Source: Bacteroidota bacterium (GTDB lineage: Bacteria > Bacteroidota > Bacteroidia > Palsa-948). Taken from it: a DNA stretch of 37,341 nt. A program made the translations under genes and the position numbers. Numbering within the stretch: position 1 is the first letter of the stretch; each line of letters starts with the position of its first letter. The notes under the pieces were generated by a model. The model saw only the letters and a list, made by a program, of their open reading frames with translations. It did no database searches and was not told the DNA's origin. Shown piece after piece: positions 1,490 through 3,706 of the stretch. The DNA lies in contig SCSP01000045.1 of assembly GCA_004297845.1 (NCBI GenBank), positions 1 through 37,341 of the forward strand, read 5' to 3'.

Positions 1490-3706
1490 ATGAAACATAG
1501 TAGAACCAAACGAATTATCAAAAAACAAAAGGAACAACCGACCCCGATAGCTATCAAATCGCCCCAACCCCTAAAGGAAGTTAAGGAATTTTTCTCCGTC
1601 TTTTCACCCTTTAGGGTCGGGGCAAAACGGAGGGCTGCCCTTCTCCTCCTCCTTCTCCCTTTAGGGCTGGGGCAGGAGGGGCTTCTGCTTGCCCAACTCC
1701 CGCAATGGCCTTTCAGCGCAGGCGTAGATTACGGCAATGATGCTGGACGGGCTGTTGCGCTTGATGCGGCAGGCAGCAATGTATATATCACTGGAGGACT
1801 TGAATGGGACTTTGGGAGCGGACCTGCTGATTTTGACCCGGGCACAGGCACAGCGAATTTAGCGGCAATTGGTATTGTAGATATGTTTCTTGCCAAATAC
1901 TCATCGGGTAATCCCGTTTATCAGTGGGCGTTTCAGATTGGCGCAGCATCCCAAAGTTGCGTTGGTTACGGTATTGCAGTGGATGGCAGCGGCAATGTGT
2001 ATGTAACCGGCACGTTTACCGGCACGATGGATTTTGACCCGAGTGTTGGCGGCATAAACAACCTCACAGGCAATGGTATGTTTTTTGCCAAATACAACTC
2101 GTCAGGAGTCCATCAATGGGCTTTTTCCGTACCCTCAACAGCCAGTAACACAGGCAGGCGTATCCGGGTTGACGGCAGCTATGTGTATATAACAGGTACG
2201 TTTAACGGCACAGCCGATTTTGATCCGAGTGTTGGCGGCATAAACAACCTGACTTCTGCAGGCTCCGATGCTTTTGTTGCCAAGTATTCCACCGCAACAG
2301 GCGCTTACCAGTGGGCTTTAAATGCGGGTGATGATGGAATGGATATTGCAGTTGACGGCAGCGCCAATGTGTATGTATGCGGCAATTTTAACGGCATAGT
2401 CGATTTTAATCCATTGGGCGCTGCCTACAACCTTACTTCTGATGGTGCAGCAGGTGGTTTTGTTGCCAAATATAACTCATCAGGCGTATGCCAGTGGGCA
2501 TTCACATTTGGCAATACACTTCCGGCTTCATGTCCGGGGGGTAATGGCCTTGAATATTGCAGGGCATTGGCTGTTGATGCCAGCGCGAATGTGTATGTAA
2601 GCGGCAACTTTTGGAACTGTGTTGATTTTGACCCCAATCCCGCAACCGAGAAACCTCTCGACTCAGGTGCGCCTGGACCACAGCATCTTTTCGTTGCCAA
2701 ATATAACTCGGCAGGAGATTATCAATGGGCTTTTAGCGTAAATGATAATGATTATAGCAGTGGTATGACAACGGATGCAGCCAATGTTTACATAACGGGA
2801 AAGCTTCCAGGTACGAGCGATTTTGATCCTGATATCGGTAATGCAGTTTTATTAACTTCTGCCGGAGCCATGGACATATTTGTGGCAAAATATACTTTAG
2901 CCGGGAATTATGTATGCGCCTTCAGGGTGGGCCACACACGTGATCAATTAAGCGAGGATATTGTTGTTGACGCAAGCGGCAATATGTATATAACAGGCAG
3001 TTTTTTCAATGCCACATCATTAGCCCCCGTGGATTTTGACCCCGGTTCCGGCACAGCTTTTCTCACTACTACCGGTTTCCTCGGCAGCAGCGATATCTTT
3101 GTTGCAAAATATAACAGTGTTTGCAACATTGTTCTTCCGGTTGAACTGATTTCCTTTTCAGGAAAATGTGAAAACAACAATGTAGTTGAATTGCAATGGC
3201 AAACTGCCACCGAAATCAACAACGATTATTTTACTATAGAAACAGGGCCCAAGGGGCAGGGGACGAGTGAGTTACAATGGAAAGAAATCGGAATGGTAAA
3301 AGGCGCAGGAAATTCTTCTGCTATTCGCAAGTATGAATTTGTGGATTCTCAACTTGAAACTTTCAACCAGAAACTTGAAACTCTTTTTTACCGTCTCAAA
3401 CAAACCGATTACAACGGCAAGTATGAATACTACGGACCGATTTCAGTTAATCTCACTGACTGCGATGCAAATCCCATAAATGTTTTTCCGACAATTTCGA
3501 GTAATGGTTATTTTACAATTACAGGAGGAAAAGAAAAAGCAGACGTAACAGTATATACGCTGCTTGGACAAAAAATATTAGCAGCAAACAACACGATGCT
3601 CCCGTTCACATTTTTTCTGGGAGAAGAAACAGGCGCTGGCATTTATCTTCTGCAAGTAAAAATACGGAAAGAATCATATAATCAAAAATTAATCATGCAG
3701 AAATGA
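1490..3706 (+). CDS. Seven-repeat beta-propeller (SBBP) surface protein with T9SS type A sorting domain
   Basis: A 738-residue exported protein. Residues about 70-545 hold seven copies of a roughly 65-residue repeat of the form VDGSGNVYVTGxFxGTxDFDP...FVAKYNSxGxYQWAF, the SBBP (beta-propeller) repeat; seven DFDP/DFNP motifs fit a seven-bladed propeller. After LPVELISFSG comes a beta-sandwich linker common in Bacteroidota secreted proteins (FYRLKQTDYNGKYEYYGP). The last ~75 residues (INVFPTISSNGYFTI... to KLIMQK) are a type A T9SS sorting domain, so the protein should pass through type IX secretion to the cell surface. The N-terminus is odd: about 48 basic or mixed residues precede a hydrophobic core (ALLLLLLPLGLG, then LLLAQ), and that core is encoded by palindromic repeat DNA (1562-1692). 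The next gene's start lies close to this stop, implying co-transcription. The binding target is unknown. Confidence 0.85.
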   Translation: MKHSRTKRIIKKQKEQPTPIAIKSPQPLKEVKEFFSVFSPFRVGAKRRAALLLLLLPLGLGQEGLLLAQLPQWPFSAGVDYGNDAGRAVALDAAGSNVYITGGLEWDFGSGPADFDPGTGTANLAAIGIVDMFLAKYSSGNPVYQWAFQIGAASQSCVGYGIAVDGSGNVYVTGTFTGTMDFDPSVGGINNLTGNGMFFAKYNSSGVHQWAFSVPSTASNTGRRIRVDGSYVYITGTFNGTADFDPSVGGINNLTSAGSDAFVAKYSTATGAYQWALNAGDDGMDIAVDGSANVYVCGNFNGIVDFNPLGAAYNLTSDGAAGGFVAKYNSSGVCQWAFTFGNTLPASCPGGNGLEYCRALAVDASANVYVSGNFWNCVDFDPNPATEKPLDSGAPGPQHLFVAKYNSAGDYQWAFSVNDNDYSSGMTTDAANVYITGKLPGTSDFDPDIGNAVLLTSAGAMDIFVAKYTLAGNYVCAFRVGHTRDQLSEDIVVDASGNMYITGSFFNATSLAPVDFDPGSGTAFLTTTGFLGSSDIFVAKYNSVCNIVLPVELISFSGKCENNNVVELQWQTATEINNDYFTIETGPKGQGTSELQWKEIGMVKGAGNSSAIRKYEFVDSQLETFNQKLETLFYRLKQTDYNGKYEYYGPISVNLTDCDANPINVFPTISSNGYFTITGGKEKADVTVYTLLGQKILAANNTMLPFTFFLGEETGAGIYLLQVKIRKESYNQKLIMQK
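1562..1692. repeat. Cluster of palindromic repeats inside a signal peptide
   Basis: Three hairpin-like centres (CCCCTAAAGG near 1568-1577, CACCCTTTAGGG near 1606-1616, CTCCCTTTAGGG near 1656-1667), each with C-rich and G-rich arms, lie within the 5' end of the propeller gene. The last one is read CTC CCT TTA GGG and encodes LPLGLGQEG, in the same codon phase as the repeat in AlaS. Together they encode most of residues 25-67, including the hydrophobic core of the signal peptide. Confidence 0.6.
3350..3382. repeat. Short ACTTGAAAC-type tandem repeat within coding sequence
   Basis: AACTTGAAAC, TTTCAACCAG and AAACTTGAAAC follow each other and encode QLETFNQKLET in the linker before the sorting domain of the first propeller protein. 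A related sequence in the opposite sense lies at 20925-20950. It appears to be a small in-frame insertion. Confidence 0.4.

Follow-up and report, generated by a model that had tools for sequence, protein, structure and literature searches.

A genus-restricted palindromic repeat kept in frame within signal peptides of Bacteroidota, where it has probably rewritten existing export signals

Can the signal peptide of a secreted protein be made from repeat DNA? Signal peptides evolve quickly, and what they were made from can rarely be traced. The question is raised here by the leader of a gene located at positions 1490-3706 (+) of contig SCSP01000045.1 (C131 in our numbering), which belongs to a Bacteroidota genome (GCA_004297845.1; 3.47 Mb, 98% complete, 412 contigs) and whose entire analysed stretch of 37,341 nucleotides is hereafter called the window. 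The gene encodes a 738-aa protein with SBBP beta-propeller repeats (PF06739, E 1.1e-10) and a type A C-terminal sorting domain of the type IX secretion system (T9SS; TIGR04183, 25.7 bits, cut-off 23), by which it qualifies as T9SS cargo. A sequence-only reading had proposed that palindromic repeat arms encode the hydrophobic core of its signal peptide, and that such repeats, by creating or extending export signals, offer a simple route to new secreted proteins. By using the genome stretches around the repeat, we conclude (with a probability of roughly 0.85) that the arms represent a genus-restricted 19-nt palindromic repeat, similar to repetitive extragenic palindromes (REPs) and their inverted doublets (REPINs), that is kept in frame and has rewritten already existing signal peptides, including that of the propeller gene.

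Repeat arms in the leader of the propeller gene

The N-terminus of the open reading frame (ORF) translates as MKHSRTKRIIKKQKEQPTPIAIKSPQPLKEVKEFFSVFSPFRVGAKRRAALLLLLLPLGLGQEGLLLAQLPQW..., and ATG 1490 is its sole canonical in-frame start from the upstream stop (1451) to the propeller, the next one (ATG 1883) being situated within the mature protein. As no other canonical start precedes the core, translation of the gene would take in the leader; against the objection (raised by the sequence-only reading itself) that translation may begin downstream of the repeats, the stretch from 1490 to 1883 offers no further canonical in-frame start. Residues 1-68 (1490-1693, +) are a putative signal peptide, judging from their sequence, their hydropathy and the homology to paralogues, which begins just past the proposed cleavage site. 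The leader would comprise a 48-aa n-region, the h-region AALLLLLLPLGLG and a probable cleavage at LLLA/QLPQW, and it follows the Sec pattern of basic n-region, hydrophobic core and small residue before cleavage (predicted net charge of +11 ahead of the core, KD12 of 2.67, LLLA/Q at the likely cleavage site).

Three copies of the arm CTCCCTTTAGGGNNGGGGC lie within these 68 residues, at 1561-1580 (minus), 1605-1624 (plus) and 1655-1673 (plus). The motif CCCTTTAGGGNNGGGG matches both plus copies without mismatches (1607-1622 and 1657-1672) and the minus copy (1563-1578) with 2 mismatches, and the window as a whole holds 5 matches at <=2 mismatches versus 0.21 expected from shuffles. In the n-region, SPQPLKE is encoded by the degenerate minus arm (a member of the CCCTTTAGGG family) and SPFRVGA by the first plus arm, and together these two form a (-)(+) inverted-pair element in which the arms are paired in the RNA fold of 1558-1626 (-26.5 kcal/mol). 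The single-strand DNA fold of 1556-1692 was weak (z -1.68), and positions 1400-1900 had no match in Rfam at the gathering threshold. The last plus arm, CTCCCTTTAGGGCTGGGGC, reads LPLGLG(Q) and lies within the hydrophobic core. Upstream of the arms, the palindrome CCCCGATAGCTATC (1542-1555, no strand), part of a second palindromic family CCCGATAGCTATCGGG (42 matches at <=2 mismatches in 711 kb; reversed control 0), encodes TPIAI, likewise in the n-region.

The proposed repeat origin of the core thus holds in part: LPLGLG(Q) provides 7 of the 20 residues of the h/c-region, the ALLLLL segment that precedes it is encoded by a CTC/CTT run immediately beyond the edge of the conserved arm, and EGLLLA by DNA that is not repeat. 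The n-region is indeed unusually long (48 residues ahead of the core versus a median of 8 in the arm-free signal peptides compared), and the two arms and the palindrome that it contains partly account for this length.

Copy number, pairing and genus limits of the repeat

At <=1 mismatch over its 14 specified bases (the matching rule used for arms), CCCTTTAGGGNNGGGG has 159 copies in the genome and its reversed control 4, which makes the repeat DNA of the leader, as first noticed, real. Aligned copies extend the arm consensus to roughly TTTCTCCCTTTAGGGYYGGGGCAA. An 18-nt form was recovered in all seven genomes of the genus (5-126 copies per genome), and in 53 genomes from elsewhere in the class it numbered 0-1 copies (2 in one of them). 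Most arms (252/386, 65%) have a partner within 200 nt in the (-)(+) order, with a median spacing of 41 nt, while a single arm is paired in the (+)(-) order; short palindromic arms thus occur both as singlets and as inverted doublets of fixed order, as in REPs and REPINs, and neither a GTAG nor a CGTC tag was seen at an end of the arm and flank consensus. From the copy number, the genus restriction and the presence or absence of arms between orthologues we infer that the repeat moves.

Y1 (RAYT-type) transposases are encoded in six of the seven genomes and are missing from the one with the fewest arms, which is suggestive only. Although present, they were rejected as mobilisers of the arm, as the hairpins flanking them differ: at 27 Y1 loci the same repeat was not found beside the transposase gene, and the hairpins common to both flanks were other palindromes.

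The resemblance between arm and signal-peptide codons could in principle be convergent, as the DNA of Leu/Pro/Gly-rich signal peptides is C/T-rich and Leu-rich. We regard such a chance likeness as very improbable, given the stringency of the arm matches (14 specified bases, <=1 mismatch, reversed control near zero), the lack of LPLG in arm-free orthologues from the genus, and the occurrence elsewhere of the same arm DNA read in different frames and from the opposite strand.

In-frame arms and their readings

Many arms lie in frame within conserved genes, and in all three proteins compared with PDB homologues the inserts fall at a gap or break: two arm inserts in MnmG, a 36-aa insert in biotin carboxylase (residues 264-299) and a 27-aa insert in Ffh (residues 161-187). 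These three genes display in-frame palindromic insertion into conserved coding sequence, the behaviour of Rickettsia-type palindromic elements. Read from the coding strand the arm yields LPLGxG or SPFRxGA, the third frame being closed by TAG unless a TTC variant opens it (SLQGRG), and from the opposite strand AP(T)LKG or PDPKG; LPLGxG is the only stop-free reading with a clearly positive mean hydropathy (+1.04). As a separate observation, Ffh (L083:2132-3550), the signal recognition particle protein that binds signal peptides, itself carries the repeat, as the 27-aa insert in its NG domain.

Arms in signal-peptide cores and sorting tails

Manual reading of the lists for four genomes (G000, G004, G005, G006) placed 20 of 299 distinct arms in the core or at the end of a signal peptide or lipoprotein signal, and genus-wide about 21 N-termini carry an arm in the signal-peptide core. 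Seventeen of the 20 are read from the coding strand as LPLG/LPSG, two as SLQGRG, one as PFRAGAQ and none in antisense; antisense arms at N-termini are found in n-regions or ahead of the start. The LPLG/LPSG cases are the window gene, L064 (a TonB receptor with the leader LLLLLPLGSGLLLAQTQTVSG), L069, L071, L104, L107 (a PstS-like lipoprotein), L156, L169, L173 (two), L180 and L215 (both LptC), L183, L194, L196, L209 and L212; further core cases are L161, L091 (a BatD-like protein, named by resemblance and without a family match), L197 and L347. An automatic rule recovered the same bias, with 16 of 28 arms at hydrophobic N-termini in the coding-strand LPLG frame versus 13 of 75 internal arms (Fisher p 1.5e-4).

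Arms in cores have a partner less often than other arms (8/21 versus 244/365, p 0.0095), which would be expected of cores that do not tolerate the hydrophilic (-) arm. Signal peptides with and without arms have similar core hydropathy (median 2.47 versus 2.63, p 0.39), and the former have longer n-regions (16 versus 8, p 0.003). By a crude estimate signal peptides make up ~1.2% of the sampled DNA, a share that 20 of 299 arms well exceeds (p 1e-9); we treat this excess as tolerance, not targeting.

Inverted pairs near start codons might alternatively act as mRNA hairpins that control translation, their coding effect being incidental. Many arms are located in 5' leaders, and some signal-peptide arms have a partner just upstream of the ATG (L212, L347), yet only 8/21 core arms possess an upstream partner, both partner arms of the window gene lie downstream of its start, and arms also occur deep within genes; we consider a regulatory role unlikely to explain the pattern.

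The arm recurs at the other end of exported proteins, within the T9SS C-terminal sorting domain, always in the same frame and as LP[SL]GxGxGIYF (L167, L168, L172, L179, L185 and L186 in G006, L203 in G004, L354 in G002); arm-free tails have forms such as LSAQPSGIYF. The element might preferentially colonise, and be retained in, export signals at both ends (Sec cores and the LPxGxGxGIYF turn), and its sequence may be shaped to be export-compatible (LPLGxG), as a portable signal-peptide module, an idea that we put forward as doubtful.

Created or rewritten export signals

Arm-free orthologues from all four families checked (M23 peptidase, LptC, an outer-membrane-type protein and the BatD-like protein) carry an ordinary signal peptide or lipobox in the corresponding place. 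Among the paralogues of the propeller protein, the nearest (C356, 57% identity) has an ordinary, repeat-free and different leader, MKKNQSYFQSVISVCFIIQILCFTSAFAQPWPF, which removes the other objection of the sequence-only reading, namely that paralogues might share the N-terminus without repeat-like DNA. Since arm-free orthologues have ordinary signals, core hydropathy is the same and this paralogue is repeat-free, we reason that existing signals were rebuilt by the repeat.

The opposite proposal, that the repeat created new export signals and so turned cytosolic proteins into secreted ones, could draw on the mildly hydrophobic LPLGxG reading and on the precedent of YPO1552 in Yersinia, for which a repeat-formed signal peptide was previously proposed (PMC2759123). 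It appears improbable to us, however, as signal peptides or lipoboxes were already in place in the arm-free orthologues of the four families, the paralogues of the window protein are exported-type proteins with signal peptides (and, where seen, T9SS tails), and the relatives of YPO1552 have unrelated signal sequences (Delihas, PMC2759123). No newly created export signal was found among the cases analysed. Hence, what survives of the initial proposal is the extension of export signals (part of the core and a longer n-region, in this protein and about 20 more from the genus), and its simple route to new secreted proteins does not.

Several points weigh against rewriting under a frame filter. The held-out genomes (G002/G003) have only 1 of 86 arms in a signal-peptide core (L347, in the predicted frame; one case is too few for statistics, and there is no enrichment there), and the roughly 4.5-fold excess in cores, pooled over all genomes, is not uniform. 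Gene and signal-peptide calls were crude (codon score, hydropathy), and the LptC cases of G005/G006, like the L212/L347 pair, share their layout and may each stem from one ancestral insertion. For the window gene a strict arm-free orthologue was not found, only paralogues at <=57% identity; the search in named genome contigs returned one distant relative (the Bacteroidetes metagenome-assembled genome nzgw125), which together with the T9SS tails places the genome in Bacteroidota. In signal peptides at large, leader DNA diverges too quickly to tell insertion from replacement. Mobility and export were derived from sequence.

The L212 (G005) and L347 (G002) proteins are LysM-type exported orthologues (63% identity), and in each a minus arm directly precedes the ATG while a plus arm lies within the core of the signal peptide, a layout that suggests an old shared insertion.

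Signal peptides tolerate nearly any basic-then-hydrophobic-then-cleavable sequence and are discarded after export. We envisage that the repeat would spread through the genome as 19-nt arms, mostly in (-)(+) inverted pairs, and that an arm would be kept inside coding sequence when in frame and harmless, in the manner of Rickettsia palindromic elements. In the core, purifying selection would let through essentially only the coding-strand LPLGxG reading, and the hydrophilic readings (APTLKG, PDPKG, SPFRxGA) would persist in n-regions, upstream of starts or where cytosolic proteins form loops. An existing signal peptide of the window gene was probably invaded by three arms and the second palindrome, which gave LPLGLGQ to its core and lengthened its n-region, with the exported part unaffected. 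The sequences establish what the repeat is, its in-frame placement, its restriction to the genus, the arm-free orthologues and the frame bias; we infer that the rebuilt signal works and that selection caused this bias.

Relation to known repeats

The Rickettsia and Wolbachia palindromic elements (RPE/WPE; Ogata et al. 2000) are described as in-frame inserts in unrelated genes, including housekeeping ones, that are apparently tolerated (PMC10969869, PMC2229807). The present repeat resembles them in being short, palindromic and in frame in unrelated and housekeeping genes, apparently tolerated as well, but RPEs measure ~105-150 nt and have other hosts, whereas here a 19-nt arm, often in an inverted pair with variable spacer, occurs in Bacteroidota and often in signal-peptide cores (it was set apart from the RPE families by their descriptions). 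Intragenic REPs of the GTAG and CGTC classes occur in several species, including within the uvrA ORF (Di Nocera et al. 2013, PMC3733652); common to both are arms of ~20 nt, found singly and as inverted dimers and in some cases within ORFs, while no GTAG/CGTC tag was seen in the present repeat and different hairpins border the Y1 transposase genes found in this genus. Alike in position is the Yersinia RU-2/YPAL, a miniature inverted-repeat transposable element proposed as signal-peptide sequence in YPO1552, whose relatives have unrelated signal sequences (Delihas 2007, PMC2759123). That element has 168 nt and one or two cases, whereas here about 21 cases from several species come with arm-free orthologues and a frame bias.

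In-frame REP/RPE insertions were already known, and in 2007 a repeat had been proposed within one Yersinia signal peptide. The novelty lies in a repeat family from Bacteroidota that recurs both in the cores of signal peptides and in T9SS tails, and in its reading-frame bias. When orthologues with and without the repeat are compared, selfish-looking DNA is seen to have become signal-peptide sequence that looks functional, and a reading-frame filter can be recognised across different genes and species. This provides a natural test of the minimum of sequence information that a signal peptide requires. In-frame palindromic insertions are thereby extended to Bacteroidota; the birth of new secreted proteins is not what the data show.

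Other palindromes and neighbouring genes

Odd leaders were also encountered in other T9SS-type or propeller proteins, in L068 (G000:C51; SPFGGAGGG...LSPFWGVGGGNCFAQ) and in L035 (G000:C102; a long Phe run followed by PLHWKGLYAQ), a hint that this repeat is not the only palindromic family to enter signal peptides. Within the window, a perfect 20-bp inverted repeat (GGGTGTATAACAAAACTCAC / GTGAGTTTTGTTATACACCC; 709-790) surrounds the palindrome CCCCTCTCCTGAGGAGAGGGG (731-751), akin to a family with 137 matches in 711 kb, and a perfect palindrome, CCCCGGTAGCTACCGGGG, lies at 228-245. The hairpin CCACGACCTTAAGGTCGTGG (138-157) is near in sequence to the one flanking the Y1 transposase genes L297 and L300 and is likely, by this similarity, a REP belonging to a transposase of that kind. 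A PIN-domain protein (PF13470; 815-1228, -) and the short ORF that precedes it on its strand probably constitute a VapBC-like toxin-antitoxin pair, oriented divergently to the propeller gene.
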